Below, piece by piece: positions 8,385 through 24,847 of a stretch of 64,000 bases of DNA; position 1 is the first letter of the stretch, and the number at the start of each line of letters is the position of its first letter. The notes beneath the pieces were generated by a model that was not told the origin of the DNA, made no database searches, and was given only the letters and a program-made list of their open reading frames with translations. Origin of the DNA: Salinimonas marina (lineage in GTDB: Bacteria > Pseudomonadota > Gammaproteobacteria > Enterobacterales > Alteromonadaceae); contig NZ_CP064795.1 in the NCBI RefSeq assembly GCF_015644725.1, positions 335,501 through 399,500 of the forward strand. Direction: 5' to 3'. The position numbers and the translations under genes were made by a program.

Positions 8385-8705
8385 ATGGCACAATGGAACG
8401 GAAAGTATATTCACCCCTACGCAGAACATGGCAAAAAGAGCGAACAGGTAAAAAAAGTCACGGTATCGATCCCCATCAATGTGCTCAAAGAGCTGACTGA
8501 TGAACGGACCCGCCGGCAGATAAATAATTTACGTCACGCCACCAATTCAGAATTGTTGTGCGAGGCATTTTTGCATGCCTTTACCGGTCAGCCGTTGCCC
8601 AATGATGATGATCTTCGTAAAGATAATCCGAATCGGGTCCCGGCCGAAGCCCGCCGGATCATGGAAGCCATGGGCATTGACTCTTCAATTGAGAATGATG
8701 CTTAA
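8385..8705 (+). CDS. metJ: methionine repressor MetJ
   Basis: MetJ is a ribbon-helix-helix repressor that uses S-adenosylmethionine as corepressor. The 106 residues match the family closely: start [20 protein letters not shown], beta-ribbon [20 protein letters not shown], and the helix [29 protein letters not shown] in adjacent blocks. It is divergent from metF. It stands alone here: metB and metL, its neighbours in enteric bacteria, are not adjacent. Confidence 0.97.
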
Positions 8706-15905: not shown

Positions 15906-15934
15906 AAAAGCCGCTGCCTGTCAGCGGCTTTTTT
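15906..15934 (+). terminator. rho-independent terminator after hslU
   Basis: AAAAGCCGCTG, loop CCTGT, CAGCGGCTTTTTT. It serves hslVU and, from the other side, may end the ATP-grasp operon, whose last stop is at 15938. Confidence 0.9.
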
Positions 15935-15937
15935 GTT

Positions 15938-16876
15938 TCAGAAGGACACACCAGCCTTGGCACACAGACAACGGGCCAGGGTCGCAGCAATAGGCAGCTG
16001 GCTGATGGTCTCAAAATGTGCAAATCGCGGCGCCGGATTTATCTCCAGAAAGTAATAGTGACCCTGCTCATCCAGACGCCAGTCTATAGCGCCCCAGTGC
16101 ATGCCTAGCCTGAGCATCAACGCGCGGCCCTGACGCACCAGTTCGTCGGGCAGGGTGTGCGGCCGATAACGGGTATGGCTATCTTCTCGAAAATCGACGT
16201 ACGAAGACTGTAATTCGCCGCAAAAACAATAATCATCAATCAGGTAACTGCGAATATTGGTGCCGCCGATGTATTGCTGCAAGGTTGCCGGCTCCTGGCC
16301 TGCTGCCTGAGCTGATGCCTGGCCGGTATGGTGGGGAGCCTGATCCTGATCCTTCCTGAACCGATAGGTAAAGCGGCCCCCGTGGACCGGTTTTATAATA
16401 ATATCCGGGTGCTTATTCAAAAACAGCCGCACGCGGTCCGGATGATTACCGATACAGGTGGCAGGCAGTCGTAAATCACCCTGAGCAGCCAGAGTCAGCT
16501 GCCAGGGTTTGCATTTGTGTGAACGCATCACCGTCACACTATTAAACCACCGGATATGCGGTTGCTGGAACAGCACCTCCAGCAGACTGTATTTATCGTG
16601 TGGGTTGTTCCCATGGATACCGGGTTGGTCATTATTAGTGTTAAACGGATAAAACTGGTCCCAAAAGACACTGTGTATCTGCTTGAAAGCCACTTCCTCA
16701 TGGTTCACCCGCAACCAGCCGGAGGCCCTTTCAGGCTCGTAGCTGATAAAACTGTCACTGCCGAACCGGCTGGTGTCGAGCACCAGGATCCGATAGGAAT
16801 GCCTGGTCAGCTGCTGCATAAGGTGCCGGACTTCTGGGGTCTCGACCTTACCAATAATTAATACTGTCTGGCGCAT
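15938..16876 (-). CDS. ATP-grasp ligase, RimK/MvdD-like, probable peptide-modifying enzyme
   Basis: 312 residues from ATG 16876 (GGAG nine bases before; an upstream TTG is less likely). Features of the ATP-grasp fold: the N-lobe block FNSVTVMRSHKCKPWQL (about 111-127), the ATP-binding lysine in IIKPVHGGRFTYRF (Lys162), the hinge region LQQYIGGTNIRSYLI (199-213), and the metal-binding IDWRLDE (264-270) and FLEINPAPRF (276-285). This is the layout of MvdD/RimK ligases that join carboxylates to hydroxyls or amines through acyl phosphate. It is the last gene of an operon with a double-glycine-leader peptide and a C39 exporter, so I infer that it crosslinks that peptide (graspetide-like) or adds residues to it. 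The family is recognised; the substrate is inferred. Confidence 0.8.
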   Translation of the reverse strand: MRQTVLIIGKVETPEVRHLMQQLTRHSYRILVLDTSRFGSDSFISYEPERASGWLRVNHEEVAFKQIHSVFWDQFYPFNTNNDQPGIHGNNPHDKYSLLEVLFQQPHIRWFNSVTVMRSHKCKPWQLTLAAQGDLRLPATCIGNHPDRVRLFLNKHPDIIIKPVHGGRFTYRFRKDQDQAPHHTGQASAQAAGQEPATLQQYIGGTNIRSYLIDDYCFCGELQSSYVDFREDSHTRYRPHTLPDELVRQGRALMLRLGMHWGAIDWRLDEQGHYYFLEINPAPRFAHFETISQLPIAATLARCLCAKAGVSF

Positions 16877-16946
16877 AAAAGGGCGCTCCAACCGTTGACC
16901 GGAAATGGCGGCGCTACACTAAGCGCCGCCCCATCTGCAGACAGTG

Positions 16947-17144
16947 TTACCACAAACTCGGATCGGGCAGGGTGCCGCCGTCTTCGCCTAATGCCTGGGT
17001 AAACTGAGGCTGGGGTTTAAGTTGCGGCTTAGGGTCGGGGGCCATAAGATGTGGGCCGGCACCGGCGATCTGGTCGAGGCAGGTATCAGACAACTCGCGG
17101 GGTGTCGTACGGATATAACGGGGGGCATTGCTTGGTTTCATCAT
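16947..17144 (-). CDS. candidate RiPP precursor peptide with double-glycine-type leader
   Basis: 65 residues from ATG 17144 (AAGGA six bases before; a second ATG follows directly at 17141). Residues 16-29 read PRELSDTCLDQIAGA: Leu-12, Ser-11, Leu-7, Ile-4 and Gly-2 all match the double-glycine leader consensus if cleavage follows Ala29. That gives a 36-residue core, residues 30-65: GPHLMAPDP, then KPQLKPQPQ, then FTQALGEDGG, then TLPDPSLW. The core has candidate nucleophiles (Thr49, Thr58, Ser63, Lys39, Lys43) and acids (Asp37, Glu54, Asp55, Asp61) for ATP-grasp crosslinks. The microviridin leader motif PFFARFL is absent. The single leader Cys22 lies outside the core. No homologue is recognised by eye. 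Confidence 0.75.
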   Translation of the reverse strand: MMKPSNAPRYIRTTPRELSDTCLDQIAGAGPHLMAPDPKPQLKPQPQFTQALGEDGGTLPDPSLW

Positions 17145-17197
17145 TATCTTTCCTTGATAGTATAAAACAGGCCGCCAGCGCGGCCCAGGGGTGGTCA

Positions 17198-17455
17198 TCA
17201 GCTTTTTGCTACAGTGGTTTCAGGCTGATACAGGTAACGAAAATAGCTGGCCATTAATGCTGACCGGTTGCGTATTTCCAGTTTTCGATAAATATTCGCG
17301 CAGTGAAATTTGACGGTACGCTCGCTGATAAAAAGCTGTGCAGCGATACTCTTATTGGGCAGTCCTTCAAGAATCTTGTGGGCTACCTGCCGCTCCCGGT
17401 TGGATAGGCTGGATAGGCGAAGGTGATAGATGCTGGTGTCATTAATGCTGGTCAT
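17198..17455 (-). CDS. stand-alone LuxR-type helix-turn-helix protein
   Basis: 85 residues consisting almost only of a GerE/LuxR DNA-binding domain (about 13-77): LSNRERQVAHKILEGLPNKSIA, then LFISERTVKFHCANIYRKLEI. There is no receiver or ligand-binding domain, as in GerE itself. ATG 17455 overlaps the end of the exporter gene by 14 bases, so it is translationally coupled within the peptide operon. It is likely a local regulator of the operon (inference); its signal is unknown. Confidence 0.85.
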   Translation of the reverse strand: MTSINDTSIYHLRLSSLSNRERQVAHKILEGLPNKSIAAQLFISERTVKFHCANIYRKLEIRNRSALMASYFRYLYQPETTVAKS

Positions 17456-19613
17456 TAGGCTCTCCTTGAGCAGGGTTTAGGGGTACACATATATCCTGCT
17501 GAGCATTCGACACACGGGTCAGACTGCCGTTTTCCAGGATAAAAACGTCATCGGCCAGCGCTATAGTGTGCGGCCGGTGAGCAACAATAATTCGGGTAAT
17601 AGACATGGCTTTAAGGTGCGCATTGATGCGAGCTTCGTTGGCCACATCAAGGTGACTACTGGCTTCATCCAAAAACAACACCGCTGGCTGTCGATATAGC
17701 GCCCGGGCCAGAAACAGACGCTGGAGCTGGCCACCACTTAAGGTGCTGCCCATATCGCCGACCAGGGTCTGGTATTGCATTGGCATGCGGGCGATATCCT
17801 GTTCCAGACAGGCCATGCGGGTGGCCTGTTGTAGCCGGTCCATGTCGGGGGTGTCATCAAAGCCGGTTATGTTGTCCAGTACGGTGCCGTTTAGACAGGT
17901 ATCATCCTGCAATACCGCCGCGCTTAGTCGGCGAAAGTGGACACTGCTGTGCACCTCCTGTCCGGCGTATTGCACGCTGCCGCTATCTGGCTTTATCAAT
18001 CCCATCAGACATTTCAAAAAGGTACTTTTGCCGGCGCCGCTGGGGCCAATAATGGCTATGGTCTGGCCCGGGGCCACCGTCAGATTCAGGTTCTCAAACA
18101 GCGGGACGCTCAGGGCACCAAAACGATACGACAGGTTGTTCACGTGCAGCGCCGAGGACGGCGCGCGGGTGCCAGAGTGGTCGTAATTAAGCTGTTCCGG
18201 AGTGCTGAAAACAATATCGGCTAACCGGTCCAGGTGAACTCGCAGTAATTTCAGCTGAATCAGCTGGTGGATTAAATTGTCGCAGGCAGTGGTAAACTGG
18301 CTTTTGTAGCTGATAAAGGCATACAGCATGCCCACGGTGAATAGATTACCCATGACCGCCTGCGCGCCCAGAAAAATCACCAGCAGATTCTGCACTCCAA
18401 AGATGAGCTGATTAGCCGCGGCCAGCACAATGTCGGTTTTACCCAGGCGGATATCGGTGTTGATAACTTTGACCAGCAAATTTTGCCATTGATTATGACG
18501 CAGCGCCTGATAATTGAATTGCTTGACTGCCTGAATCGAGCGCACGGTCTCAAGAAAATGCCCCTGCTCGGTGGCGCTGTGGTGCAACCGTTCGGCGCTG
18601 ATGTTTCTGATATGTCCGAAGGTGGCCCAGCGCAGGGCGATATACAGCACAATACTGCTGGCGACTACCACACTAAGCAGCGGTGAGTACAGCCACATGA
18701 CCACCAGCATCACCAATGTCATCAGGCCATCCAGCAAGGCGGTCACCAGCCCCGTGGTCAGCTGTTCTCGCACCTCAGCCAGACAGCCAAACCGGGACAC
18801 CACATCGCCCAGGTGACGCCGGGCAAAAAAGTCTGCCGGCAGATGCAGTAAGTGATGAAACAGATTGGCGGACATCTGGCCCTGTAAACGGCTGGATAAC
18901 GACAAAATCAACCATTTTCGTACCCCGGTGGTGGCACATTCAATCAGCAGCAGTAAGCCAAATCCCAGTGCCAATACGCTAAGCAGATGATCAGAATGGC
19001 GCAATAGCACATCATCTACCACCGTCTGCATGTAGTAGGGGCTGGCAAGGGCAAAAAGCTGGAGCAGTACCGACAATACAAACAACAGAGTCAGACTGCG
19101 TTTAAGCCCGCGAGCCCGTTGCCAGAAGTGTCCCAGAGTCAGTCTAGGCGCGGCGTCCGGACACTGATAGAGGCCGGCGCAGGTGAGCTCCAGCGCCACC
19201 CCGGTGAGCTGCTCATCGGCCTCAGCAAAGCGTAAAAAGCGCTGTCCGGTGGCCGGGTCGTTGATAAAGATACCCTGGCGGCTGACGCTGGTGAGCACCA
19301 CAAAGTGTTGCATGTTCCAGTGTAAAATCGCGGGCAGGCTGAGTTGTGCCAGGTCTCCGGGTTCAACTTTTAACGCCCGCGCCGATAAATTAATCTGGGC
19401 TGCCACGGCCATAAGATCTTTTAAGGTAAGCCCACGGCCTGAGACCCCAAAGCGCTGTCTCAACGCCGATAATTCCAGTTCGTTGCCGAAATGCTGACTG
19501 ACCATACACAGACACGCCAGTCCACACTCAGCCATTTCGGCCTGAAAGACTTGTGGTACGCGGGCCCGGGGCGTCCATCGAAACTGTAACGGGGCGGCGA
19601 ATAATGTGTTCAT
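17442..19613 (-). CDS. peptidase-containing ABC exporter (C39 domain), CvaB-like
   Basis: 723 residues from ATG 19613, which overlaps the adaptor stop as ATGA. The N-terminal C39 peptidase has Gln24, catalytic Cys30 (AEMAECGLACLCMV), His103 (HWNMQHFVVL) and Asp119 (NDPATG), all intact. A six-helix transmembrane domain spans about 155-440. The nucleotide-binding domain has Walker A GPSGAGKS (523-530), signature LSGGQ (about 625-629), Walker B AVLFLDEASSHLD and the His switch VAHRPH. Such transporters cut double-glycine leaders and export the core across both membranes with an HlyD-type adaptor and TolC. The clear substrate is the peptide encoded two genes downstream. Confidence 0.93.
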   Translation of the reverse strand: MNTLFAAPLQFRWTPRARVPQVFQAEMAECGLACLCMVSQHFGNELELSALRQRFGVSGRGLTLKDLMAVAAQINLSARALKVEPGDLAQLSLPAILHWNMQHFVVLTSVSRQGIFINDPATGQRFLRFAEADEQLTGVALELTCAGLYQCPDAAPRLTLGHFWQRARGLKRSLTLLFVLSVLLQLFALASPYYMQTVVDDVLLRHSDHLLSVLALGFGLLLLIECATTGVRKWLILSLSSRLQGQMSANLFHHLLHLPADFFARRHLGDVVSRFGCLAEVREQLTTGLVTALLDGLMTLVMLVVMWLYSPLLSVVVASSIVLYIALRWATFGHIRNISAERLHHSATEQGHFLETVRSIQAVKQFNYQALRHNQWQNLLVKVINTDIRLGKTDIVLAAANQLIFGVQNLLVIFLGAQAVMGNLFTVGMLYAFISYKSQFTTACDNLIHQLIQLKLLRVHLDRLADIVFSTPEQLNYDHSGTRAPSSALHVNNLSYRFGALSVPLFENLNLTVAPGQTIAIIGPSGAGKSTFLKCLMGLIKPDSGSVQYAGQEVHSSVHFRRLSAAVLQDDTCLNGTVLDNITGFDDTPDMDRLQQATRMACLEQDIARMPMQYQTLVGDMGSTLSGGQLQRLFLARALYRQPAVLFLDEASSHLDVANEARINAHLKAMSITRIIVAHRPHTIALADDVFILENGSLTRVSNAQQDICVPLNPAQGEPNDQH

Positions 19614-20866
19614 ACAGCAAGCCTGCCCGATAATGTTAGCAGCGGCTCGAGCAGCCATTCCAGTAATGAGCGCTCGCCCAGGGCAATGTCGGCAGTAAAG
19701 GTCATGCCCGATTTAAGGGTGACAGGTTGTCCGTAAGCCTGCAGCTGTTGAGCCTCAAGACGCGCCTCGGCTAAATACACCGGCTCCTTAAAATTTATCA
19801 GATTAGGCCCCACCTCGCTGGGTAACATCGCAGCGCTGGATAACGTGGTGATCACCGCCCCATGCAAGCCGAACTTCTGATAGGGGTAGGCGTCATAGCG
19901 CAGGGCCAGCTGCTGGCCTTGTGTAACAAAGCCCGCGGCGCGGACCGGAATGGCGAAGCGGGCGCGCACCTGCTGATCCGGCGGAGTCAGCGTCAGCAAT
20001 GGCGTATTGGCTGGTTGTGAATGCCCCGCAAAAGCCACCAGATTGCTTACTACCCCATCGCGGCTGGCACGCAGGATCCGTTGGCTTTGAGATTGTAACT
20101 GTACAAGCTGCTGACGAATTTCACTGCTTTTATGCCCAAAGGCTGCCAGCGCATTGTGCTGCTCCAAAGGCAAAGCCTCCAGAGCCTGTCGGGTTTGTGC
20201 CAGCGAGCGGGTCAGGGCGGCCAGCGCCTGCTGCTTATCTCCCAGTGACTGCTCGGCACTAAGCTTGGCGGCGTAGGCGGCATCCACTTCGCGTGAAGCC
20301 ACATGAATACCGCTTAACGGCGCCAGACGTTGGTAATGCCGTTGGGCCAGAAGCAACTGTGACTGCGCCAGATCTTTTAAACGGGCCAACGCCTCATGCT
20401 CGTTGTTCAGCGCGGCGAGGTCCCGGGTCAGTCCGTCATGTTTGTGCTGATACAGGGTTCCGGTATAGGCAATTTGTTGGTCCAGTCCCAGCAGCTGTTG
20501 CTGATATTCGTGTTGCAGCGACTGCTGGGCGACCCGGCCGTCTGCCAAGTTATGATGGACTGTAAGGGCAATCAGCGGCTCGCCCCGACGTACCTGTTGG
20601 CCTTCGGTTACCAATACCGCCTGGATAATGCTGCCGGGCTGATCAGCATAGACCTTTACAATCCCGGCGGGGGGCTCTAACCAGCCACTGACCGTTGCCT
20701 GGCGGCTATATTGGGCCTGACTCAGGTAGGTGATCGTGGCGGCGCTCCATAGTACGATGGCGCTGGCGATAACCCCCAGCCGCATTGATGGCTGAATAAA
20801 AACACTGCCGTGTAATCGGGGGCCCTGGGCGGCGAGGGCCTGGGGCCTGAACAGTCCGTTTCTCAT
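19610..20866 (-). CDS. HlyD/CvaA-family membrane fusion protein
   Basis: About 418 residues from ATG 20866 with AAGGA upstream (ATG 20878 in the same frame is an alternative). A single membrane helix near residues 35-55 follows a short cytoplasmic tail. Then come a split biotinyl-lipoyl-like domain (VYADQPGSIIQAVLVTEGQQVRRGEPL), a long alpha-helical coiled hairpin rich in Gln, Leu and Ala (about 115-260), and the C-terminal beta-barrel region. It is the periplasmic adaptor of type I secretion, as CvaA is for colicin V. It is the first gene of the peptide operon. No TolC-like channel is present nearby, so a chromosomal TolC is assumed. Confidence 0.9.
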   Translation of the reverse strand: MRNGLFRPQALAAQGPRLHGSVFIQPSMRLGVIASAIVLWSAATITYLSQAQYSRQATVSGWLEPPAGIVKVYADQPGSIIQAVLVTEGQQVRRGEPLIALTVHHNLADGRVAQQSLQHEYQQQLLGLDQQIAYTGTLYQHKHDGLTRDLAALNNEHEALARLKDLAQSQLLLAQRHYQRLAPLSGIHVASREVDAAYAAKLSAEQSLGDKQQALAALTRSLAQTRQALEALPLEQHNALAAFGHKSSEIRQQLVQLQSQSQRILRASRDGVVSNLVAFAGHSQPANTPLLTLTPPDQQVRARFAIPVRAAGFVTQGQQLALRYDAYPYQKFGLHGAVITTLSSAAMLPSEVGPNLINFKEPVYLAEARLEAQQLQAYGQPVTLKSGMTFTADIALGERSLLEWLLEPLLTLSGRLAV

Positions 20867-21395: not shown

Positions 21396-24300
21396 TTACT
21401 TATGTTGCCAGTGGTATTTGTGTGACTTTTGCTCGATGGCCTGGCTGGTGGCTTCGGGCATAAAGGTTTTGTTGTCACTTTCAAAGAAGAACGGCTTACG
21501 GGTTTTGTCATCGCCTAATTCATTCATGGTAGCGGCTTCATAAATGCGCCCGTTCAGCACCGTGTATTCAACATACTCACTGCGTTGCAGGTTGTTCAGC
21601 ACATCACCATCGATGACCACCAGGTCGGCCAGTTTGCCGGCTTCGATACTACCAATATCGGCCGCCATCCCCAGATGACGGGCACCATCGATGGTCGCGG
21701 CCCGTAAGGCTTCAAACGGGGTAAAGCCGCCTTGCTCCATTAACCACATTTCCCAGTGCGCGGCTAAGCCTTCGCGCTGACCATGGGCGCCAATGTGGAC
21801 ACTCACGCCGTTGTCCCGCAGGGTTTTCGCATATTCGGCCACCGCCTGATGATTGTATTCGCTATCCGGAGCCGTGGGACGACGGATGGCCCGGGAGTCG
21901 AGCAAAAACGACGGCGTATAGCGTAACAACCGCGGATTTTTCCAGACCTCGGTGCGATCGTACATATACTCTTCACCCATCATGCCGCCATAAGACACCA
22001 CAAAGGTTGGGGTATAACCAAACTCGGTGGCACTCCACAGCTGTGTGACATCGCTGTAACCACGCTCAATGGGCAGGCTGTGCTCAAGCCCGGTATGCCC
22101 GTCTACCAGCATGGTAAGATTCTGCTGCAGCTTGCCGCCGCCTTCTGGCACCACCATCATGTCCTGTTTACGCGCGGCCCAGACCACCTGCTGGCGTTGA
22201 CTGCGGGCGGGTTGGTTGTAACTTTTCACCGAAATGGCTCCGGCTTCTTTTAACCGCTGAACATGAAAATAGGCATCGTCGTAATCGTTAATAATGGCCT
22301 TGTAACCTAATGCTTCAGCACCGTACAAAATGGCGCCGGTAGAATAGATGCGCGGGGCCACAATATCGCCGGTGCGTTGTAGCTCTGAGGCGGCAAATAT
22401 TTCGGTGGTGTCATTGGACGGATCATGGATGGTGGTGACCCCAAAGGCCACATTCGAATACTGGCTCCAATTCTGCTGAGGAATAATTTCATTACGTCCC
22501 TGCGAACCGTGGGCATGGGCATCGATGAGACCCGGCACAATAGTTTTGCCGGTGGTATCCACCCGCATGGCATCTTCGGGGATGGCCACTTCGCCTTTTT
22601 TGCCTACTTCGACAATCCGGTTTTCTTTGATAATGACCACGCCATTTTCAATTACTTCCTGAGTATTGTCGGCATTGCGCATGGTGACTATGTTACCGCC
22701 CACCAACGCCTTGTAACCTGAAGGTTTGTCAGCTTTGGTGGTAAACGACAGGTTGGTCACTGAATTTTCGGCCAGTTGCGCTGCGTTATTGTCGTCGGCA
22801 TTTAATGCCGCCTGAATATTCTGCTCGTAATAGTTCGGACCATGGAACCAGCCTACCGCGCTGCTGTCTGCTTTCCAGGTGAAGTATTCGCCGGCACGAT
22901 CAGATAACTGGGTCACGGGCAGCGAGGTCATTTTTGGTCCCAGCGTGATTTTTTTACCATTATCCACAAACGGGGCGATATAGGTTTTGAACTGATGAAC
23001 AAACGCCACCCACTGCTTATCAGGAGACAGGCGGTATTCGCTGACCTTATCGGCGCCATACAAATGCACCCGTTTGTCGTTCCCCGCCAGATTCACACTG
23101 CTTAGCTGGGTTTCCGGGTAAGGGGTACCGCCCACCGATTCGGTGAAATATACCCGCTGGTTGTCACCGGCAAAGTGCGCATTGGTGCCCGACGCCGCAA
23201 CCTTGGTATGTTCGCCGGTGGCCAGTTTGGTGACGTACAGCCCCGGGTCCAGTGAGTACTTAGGATCTAACAGGTAGCCGCCGGAGAACTTACGATAGAC
23301 CACCTGTTGGTCATCACCGGAAAAGGCGGGTTCTACATAATGCCCGGGGTATTGGTAATCACCTGGCTGTTGCTGCCATCGGCATTAATAATGCGCACTT
23401 CGCCCAGCTGCTGGTCATGCCAGGTGGTATAAACAATCTTGCTACCGTCGTTAGAGTAACGCGGATAATATTCGTCGTGATCGTCCTGTTGCGTTAAACG
23501 CGTAACCTTACCGGATTGCTTGTTTTTGGTGTATAGCTTACCCAGCGCCTGAAACAGCATCGTCTGGCCATCAGGGGAATGCTGTGACCAGCGAATCATT
23601 TTTACATCAAATTCGTCCGGCGCCACATCCACATCAAAGCGCAGGGCGTTGGCATATTGTTTGGTTGCATTGACCGAAATATCAATGTCTTCAACGGTTT
23701 TGGTGGCCACATCAATTTTATGGAAGGTCCCGCCGGTCCAGTACACCAGCGCGCTTGAGTCTGGCAGCCAGTCAAAATAGGCATAGTAGCCTTCAGAGCC
23801 AAAGCCTTCCTGCATATCGCGTTCAAGATCCAGGGTCAGCGGGGTTTCCTCGCCGGTTTTCAGATCTTTAATAAACAGGGCCGTATTGCTTTTTACCCGG
23901 CGTACAAAGGCCAGGTAATTGCCGTCCGGAGACGGAGTGGGGACAATAGCGCCACCGGTGCCGCTGATAAAACGGGTTTCTTCACCGGTGGAACGGTCAA
24001 AGCGGGTAATCGCAAAAATGCCTTCCAGGGGGTTGCGGTTGTATTCAAACTGGGCGCCAGGCACGGTGTTTTCGGTGTAATAGATGTAGTTGCCATCATG
24101 AGAAAATACCGGGTCAGCAATATTCTGCTGGTCCGCATCGCCGTGAACCCGCGCTTTTATCTGCAGACCATCGCCGCCATCAATGTGATACATCCAGATT
24201 TCACCGGCAGGGATACTGCGGCTCGACATAATTCCCTTAGTGGCCACCAGATACTGGCCGTCGGGGCTCCATTTGGGCGAGTGCACCAGGTTATTTTTTT

Positions 24301-24699
24301 CTTGGGAAACCTGGCGTAAATTACTGCCATCGGCATCCATTACCCAGATATTGGAAATCCCGCCACGATCGGAAATAAAGGCAATTTTACTGCCATCGGG
24401 GGAAATAGAGGGTTCAATATTCCAGCCAAAATCGGCGGTCAGGGCTTTGGCCTTGCCACCGGTCAGCGGCACCTGATAAATATCCCCCAGCATATCAAAG
24501 ACCATATACTGGCCATCGGGAGACACCGACAGGCTCGACCAGGTTGTCTGATTGGTAGAGATAGTGACTTCATTTAAGTCAAAGGGGGATCCATTATATC
24601 CCAGCTGGGTTGGTCAGAATCGGTGGCTGCCTGAGCAGTTCCACTGATCAGTAAGCCGAGTGCGGAGGCCAGCAGAGTGCGGCGAAGGGGCATGGTCAT
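21396..24699 (-). pseudogene. secreted PD40 beta-propeller/amidohydrolase protein, two frameshifts
   Basis: About 1,100 residues if repaired. The start ATG 24699 opens a signal peptide (RRTLLASALGLLISGTAQA). A TolB-like propeller with repeated SPDG motifs follows, and then an amidohydrolase domain with the metal-binding GLIDAHAHG and a second-half HIGAHGQ block. The frame breaks at the G5 run 24584-24588 (one base missing) and again at CCC 23343-23345 (one base missing). Adding one base at each site restores continuous family sequence (DPPFDLNEVTIST; NTPGHYVEPAFSGDD). Apart from the two indels there are no internal stops. A signal peptide points to periplasmic or outer-envelope location; the substrate is unknown. 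A terminator follows. Confidence 0.85.
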
Positions 24700-24847
24700 G
24701 TGTGTTAACCCTGTAGTGTTATTATTGTCAAAAACAGTTAACTTATCTGCTATCTGTTGATATTGCAAAAGACAACACTATCAGGGTGTAAAGCCTGGCT
24801 ACCAGCCCGCTACGATGAATGGCGCATAATAACGGGCTGAAATTTCA

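Follow-up and report, generated by a model that had tools for sequence, protein, structure and literature searches.

The 64,000-nucleotide stretch of the Salinimonas marina genome analyzed here (the window; the source genome is 3.77 Mb on a single contig) contains a minus-strand operon of five genes, at 15938..20866, which, with a probability of about 0.8, makes a graspetide with one ester ring, between Thr49 and Glu54, that corresponds to the inner ring of plesiocin, the peptide being trimmed and exported by a C39 exporter. The genes encode an HlyD/CvaA-type adaptor, a C39 peptidase-ABC exporter, a stand-alone LuxR-type helix-turn-helix (HTH) protein, a precursor peptide and an ATP-grasp ligase (Table 1). 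The original prediction of five overlapping or near-abutting minus-strand genes with these domains is confirmed by the reading frames and domain searches, with the start of the ligase moved to ATG 16876. Its broader claim, that a ribosomal peptide is made, crosslinked, trimmed and secreted, is borne out as far as the type of the ligase, the double-glycine-type leader, the C39 triad and the conservation of the peptide frame are concerned, the crosslink and the cleavage being predictions. The system is a graspetide operon with ordinary parts and an informative natural history.

The ligase belongs with the graspetide synthetases, as originally proposed, and both the model ranking and the fold ranking disfavor its identification as a RimK/glutathione (GSH) synthetase, so that the clustering with such housekeeping enzymes that had been named as grounds for rejection is not observed. 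It scores 132 bits on the graspetide maturase model compared with 32 bits on the RimK model, graspetide synthetases (PruB, AMdnB, MdnB, MdnC and PsnB among them) occupy the first 32 structure matches, and the solved graspetide synthetases together with the full-length maturase models outscore RimK/GSH-type enzymes. PsnB is among the best matches in the Protein Data Bank (PDB), with PruB and MdnB scoring slightly higher. The DxR motif, D270, E283 and N285 are conserved, and the ligase of Alteromonas lipotrueiana (L031) is 63% identical. The most likely start is ATG 16876 (312 aa) rather than TTG 16891 (317 aa) because GGAG is found upstream and the relatives begin just before TVLIxG (P0001 is likewise 312 aa long).

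The precursor, encoded next to the ligase, consists of a leader and a core with a Thr donor and a Glu acceptor that are conserved in 45 of the 45 precursors compared. The leader, LSDTCLDQIAGA (residues 18-29), fits the canonical double-glycine leader pattern; most relatives have GG at the predicted cleavage site, whereas the window leader ends otherwise, at Ala29, after which (...IAGA) cleavage is predicted, leaving a mature peptide of 36 aa (residues 30-65), for which a neutral monoisotopic mass of 3862.94 Da is calculated in linear form and 3844.92 Da with one ring. The core reads F48-T49-Q-A-L-G-E54-D55, and T49 to G57 make up the invariant unit. In the genus sample of 59 genomes including the source, for which the label Alteromonas rests on one named member, A. 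lipotrueiana, the precursor profile matches 43 genomes, own genome counted, and one of these matches (G034) is a leader-only relic (E 0.003). Thr49, Ala51, Gly53, Glu54, Gly56, Gly57 and Pro60 are invariant in 28/28 aligned precursors, near relatives included, and all 45 share the unit T-x-A-[IL]-G-E-x-G-G without exception. This set is drawn from 42 Alteromonas genomes, with two additional precursors encoded at a second G027 locus and one in G324, which belongs to another genus; the G028 and G034 peptides, which have lost the core, were left out of the motif counts and the covariation set. The genus-wide profile matches and the invariant core residues rule out a chance origin of the peptide frame, and the lack of conservation in relatives that would have counted against the original prediction is not seen. 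Pfam and NCBIfam contain no family matching the precursor, only the self-match came up when the protein collection was searched directly, whereas the genome profile search succeeded, and two forms of the peptide searched against the PDB gave nothing relevant (no match for one, two kinase fragments with E 0.6 and 1.2 for the other).

The core and the ligase occur together in 42 of the 59 genus genomes and disappear together. Among the carriers, 38 hold all five genes at one place; the rest are G005, with genes over two contigs (the ligase on another contig, L048), and G030, whose HTH gene is interrupted by an insertion, with the cluster divided between two contigs, both genomes being counted as carriers, along with G011 and G014, which have a different exporter elsewhere. 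The 17 genomes devoid of the core either lack the ligase as well (16 genomes) or encode a decayed one (G028, where the ligase is missing DxR and two letters of what we take to be the metal-binding end, the role of DxR likewise being assumed); in G034, the leader persists without the core, there is no ligase match of note and the exporter counted is of a second type. A convergent gene that we presume to be hslU, a name that, like that of the amidohydrolase gene adjoining the cluster, was assigned by reading the sequences rather than from a family search, is found nearby in 40 of the 42 carriers, own genome included. It lies within 5.5 kb of the ligase in 39 carrier relatives, within 300 bp in 26 of these, and at 66 bp in the own genome; G062 has no hslU in its 16-kb stretch, and the hslU position could not be judged in G005. 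The distances of the cluster genes correlate with each other and with those of HslU (r 0.73-0.98 across 37 loci), as expected under mainly vertical descent. In G030 (L033, L131), the break lies inside the HTH gene and is adjoined by unrelated open reading frames (ORFs) of 417 and 587 aa. A second cluster of G027 (L049:4824-10890) consists of HlyD, C39 and ligase genes with two precursors, TTMALGEE and TTMAIGEE, no HTH being detected there, and includes a 44-aa double-glycine-like peptide at 8423-8557.

The family reaches beyond the genus. Ligase relatives were identified by profile search (at most six candidates scored per genome; E <= 1e-30) in 62 of 345 sampled family genomes, representing 19 of 52 genera, 19 of the 62 being Alteromonas. 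From the 46 non-Alteromonas places, G324 had been fetched earlier, 41 fell within 40 further stretches, and G450, G564, G395 and G641 were left out. The ligase exceeds 200 bits in 27 of the 40 stretches, and among these 27, the order HlyD-C39-HTH-precursor-ligase is observed in 16 (a weak HTH match at the edge of locus L169 was not counted), with hslU present in 9 and the amidohydrolase gene in 10; the 13 loci with weaker ligases have no precursor of the window type at 20 bits or above. Many of the precursors from other genera carry TTMAIGEE or STMAIGEE, and L175 and L182 contain rows of short MHPFSL precursors with T-x-A-x-P-E-D-G cores beside the ligase.

These variants reveal a coupling between two core positions. 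With Thr49 as position 0, Glu is found at +6 in 15 of the 16 distinct core units with Ser/Thr at -1 and in none of the 50 units without it (66 distinct units, the L172 peptide left out; Fisher 6e-14 with shared ancestry ignored), and the pair ranks third by mutual information among 153 column pairs. Twelve of the 16 units come from loci in other genera. This is what an outer ring from -1 to +6 around an inner ring from 0 to +5 would predict, and we propose, by comparison of the sequences, that the two rings are nested in this manner, the window peptide keeping the inner ring only.

The 65-aa precursor would thus be made by the ribosome, and the ligase would phosphorylate the side chain of Glu54, so that the Thr49 hydroxyl could attack the activated Glu and close a single omega-ester ring, T-Q-A-L-G-E. 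This ring would correspond to the inner one of a plesiocin-like unit, whose outer pair, present in some relatives, is absent here (Phe48/Asp55). Cleavage by the C39 domain would then follow residue 29 (...IAGA), and the 36-aa product would be exported by the ABC unit together with HlyD and a presumed outer membrane channel encoded elsewhere. In an alignment with the solved peptidase-exporter 4ry2, the Cys, His and Asp of the C39 domain fall on identical residue types, so that the triad is intact as originally noted; the domain is fused to an ABC unit and its cargo has a double-glycine-type leader, cleavage being predicted. The best NCBIfam model for the exporter is TIGR03796, with a score below its cut-off. 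Regulation of the operon is the probable role of the HTH protein, and the hairpin that follows the precursor gene probably raises the output of precursor over that of ligase mRNA. Judging by the class alone, a protease inhibitor that acts after secretion or a peptide of narrow spectrum is the most likely product; PMC8939145 states that all graspetides characterized so far inhibit proteases.

The closest described chemistry is that of plesiocin. The plesiocin unit is TTxxxxEE, in which two Thr residues precede two Glu residues. Among the 45 precursors, 2 have exactly TTxxxxEE and 4 have [ST]T....E[DE], and the window core, FTQALGED, fits neither. The window system shares with plesiocin (group 2; PsnB) the single ATP-grasp ligase and the hairpin unit, some relatives of the window peptide reading TTMAIGEE, but its core has the inner Thr-Glu pair only, in one unit compared with four repeats, and, unlike plesiocin, it occupies a fixed genomic place in a genus and includes a LuxR HTH in the operon. 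According to PMC13097080, which distinguishes 43 graspetide groups, group 2 is often accompanied by an NHLM-type exporter, a type of exporter that occurs in other groups too. Within the same family Alteromonadaceae, Gra-5 of Glaciecola sp. KUL10 is a group 2 graspetide that acquires one dehydration in Escherichia coli and lacks one donor/acceptor set compared with plesiocin (PMC9576775); its likeness to the window system is one of published description. With microviridins and marinostatin, named originally as products of ligases of this class, the system has in common an MvdD-type ligase and, by prediction here, the ester rings of these protease inhibitors (PMC7823629 and PMC8939145). The window family differs in the absence of the T-x-[KR]-x-PSD core (TxKxPSD in PMC7823629), mostly also of a PFFARFL-like leader, and of an acetyltransferase in the operon. 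A microviridin/marinostatin reading of the core is ruled out because PSD occurs in 0/45 precursors, and the plesiocin-like assignment is closer.

The double-glycine leader, the C39-ABC exporter and the HlyD-like adaptor are shared by the window operon with class II microcins and colicin V, whereas the cargo in the window adjoins a modifying ligase. This combination had been considered unlike any system that could be named. However, in the survey PMC8939145, C39-ABC (433 occurrences) has the highest weighted frequency of the families beside graspetide ligases, HlyD (191) is common there as well, and the window core is plesiocin-like; the less usual component is the LuxR HTH, which is outside the 18 families of Table 1 in that source. 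No acetyltransferase (by gene list and domain search) and no obvious immunity gene is evident within the window operon, in agreement with the original description.

Loss of the peptide often leaves the exporter-HTH module in place. Besides the own genome, 57 of 58 relatives show an HTH gene at the locus, broken in G030, and HlyD, C39 and HTH are retained without peptide or ligase in 13 of 59 genomes, whereas G006 retains the HTH only and G019 none of the five genes (all within the fetched stretch). This pattern suggests, at somewhat less than even odds, that the module is a general exporter of double-glycine peptides in the genus, with the graspetide as one cargo and the HTH protein answering to a different signal, which is compatible with the single-ring graspetide. 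Nine of the 13 exporter-only genomes have no C39 match besides the one on the hslU side, and orphan double-glycine peptides above the cut-off of the bacteriocin-leader model are encoded elsewhere in 4 of the 13 (G081, G075, G063 and G016), as well as in the own genome. The 9 genomes of the 13 other than these 4 have no such peptide above the cut-off, and the C39 gene of the exporter-only G001 has a long branch in the tree, a possible sign of decay. The orphan peptides are a lead only because the leader model is short (15 residues) and also matches 6 of 14 control genomes at the same E-value, one above the cut-off. In the own genome, the orphans lie far from the operon (L118:1465-1623 and L102:1361-1581, the latter with leader and tail seemingly in different frames), and the sole other C39 match sits in a 227-aa frame; microcin-like orphans with double-glycine leaders and Gly/Ala-rich tails are present in other genus genomes (L103, L105, L106, L107, L108, L119). 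Within part of the loci, additional double-glycine peptides were sought by pattern, with three chance-looking frames as the outcome. The fullest version of this scenario, in which a genus-wide, vertically inherited single-ring (Thr-Glu) graspetide has a conserved role, for instance in signaling or in controlling proteases, instead of one in species-specific warfare, and the hub exporter and LuxR HTH persist after its loss to serve scattered microcin-like peptides, appears doubtful.

Several observations weigh against the single-ring reading. The covariation rests on few separate switches in the ligase tree, their direction not being fixed, its count disregards shared ancestry, and it can arise from packing without a bond. 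The Thr/Glu invariance among the peptides from other genera holds by construction because these were picked with the core pattern, although 23 of 25 picked by profile score alone fit that pattern. The window precursor lacks Phhx(1,2)h, a leader motif seen in 10/45 precursors (shuffled: mean 3.8, maximum 9), as well as HPF, seen in 5/45 compared with 27/29 peptides of other genera; given that only about half of the precursors surveyed in PMC8939145 contain Phhx(1,2)h, this motif is not obligatory. The ligase scores under the curated cut-offs of the NCBIfam graspetide models and its best Pfam match is PF14398, the YheCD ATP-grasp family.

Further donors and acceptors, Lys43, Thr58 and Asp61, could form extra rings, and a product of the same class with two or more rings, Thr49-Glu54 plus Lys43/Thr58/Ser63 joined to Asp55 or Asp61, is unlikely: Lys is present at -6 in 32/45 precursors and Asp/Glu at +12 in 38/45, and relatives of Gra-5, which its authors judged to be inefficiently modified, conserve two acceptors and at least two donors (PMC9576775). 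There is, however, no invariant second donor, Glu appears at +6 only where a donor occupies -1, and Lys at -6 is loosely linked to the acidic +12 (among 66 units, 21 have both, 8 Lys only, 14 the acid only and 23 neither). That the ligase is instead a RimK/LysX/GshB-like enzyme adding an amino acid or amine without ring formation is very improbable: PF14398 is the best Pfam match and all 33 members of the ligase alignment (A2, L040 excluded) also match the RimK model, but the graspetide models and structures score higher, and such tailing would need neither an invariant hydroxyl-carboxyl pair nor a covarying outer pair.

Compared with the published texts consulted, the genus distribution (42/59), the hslU-side location (40/42), the -1/+6 covariation and the co-loss of ligase and core are new; Alteromonas is not mentioned in the main text of PMC8939145, and no paper in the open-licence literature searched matched graspetides or ATP-grasp peptides combined with Alteromonas or Alteromonadaceae. 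What microviridins and plesiocin target in nature, and which ecological roles they play, is described as still elusive in PMC9826346. A graspetide that keeps its chromosomal location in most sampled genomes of a marine genus, with natural joint losses of ligase and core, provides a genetic handle on its home function, and the natural series from two predicted rings to one to none allows a test of how two residue positions set the ring number. A hub exporter, if real, would change the search for the cargo of C39 exporters.

Table 1. Features of the graspetide operon and its 3' boundary (window coordinates)
Feature	Position	Strand	Evidence
HlyD/CvaA-type periplasmic adaptor, 418 aa	19610..20866	-	PF13437 1.6e-10, TIGR01843
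C39 peptidase-ABC exporter, NHLM-type, 723 aa	17442..19613	-	PF03412 3.3e-31, PF00664, PF00005
Stand-alone LuxR/GerE-type HTH regulator, 85 aa	17198..17455	-	PF00196 3.1e-22
Graspetide precursor, 65 aa	16947..17144	-	genus-wide profile matches, invariant core residues
Hairpin, 9-bp stem, between precursor and ligase genes	16907..16930	-	stem scan
Graspetide-type ATP-grasp ligase, 312 aa	15938..16876	-	TIGR04187 2.6e-38, structure matches, conserved residues
Terminator-like inverted repeat between convergent hslU and ligase	15911..15929	.	scan and T runs

The genes are tightly packed: an ATGA overlap joins the HlyD gene, the start of which matches that of a relative opening with MRKGLFREE, to the C39 gene, the C39 and HTH genes overlap by 14 bp, and 53 bp separate the HTH and precursor genes. 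In 6 of the 11 relative loci listed (L039, L041, L082, L068, L070, L074), an ORF of 72-102 aa, membrane-like by eye, lies between the HTH and precursor genes, a candidate immunity or accessory protein that has no counterpart in the window operon.

Hairpins were defined as stems of at least 7 bp, G-T allowed, within 60 nt of a stop codon, and compared with the 95th percentile of a Markov null. Such stems follow the precursor gene in 35 of 43 loci (20 above the 95th percentile), the ligase gene in 21 of 43 (14), the HTH gene in 14 of 43 (6) and the C39 gene in 2 of 40 (none). The hairpin between the HTH and precursor genes, although present in the window, was accordingly rejected as a general feature. 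Overall, the region has no more terminator-like sites than chance would give (7 vs 4.8 +/- 2.2), and a sigma-70 promoter scan found 3 sites vs 4.2 expected. The terminator-like repeat on the hslU side extends over 15913-15928 on the plus strand and is followed by a T run, the minus-strand T run being read from the sequence. On the opposite side, the PD40/amidohydrolase gene (21396-24768, minus strand) is split over three reading frames and may be a pseudogene or reflect a sequence error; its counterpart in A. lipotrueiana is a single frame of 1101 aa, to which the pieces are 82-88% identical.
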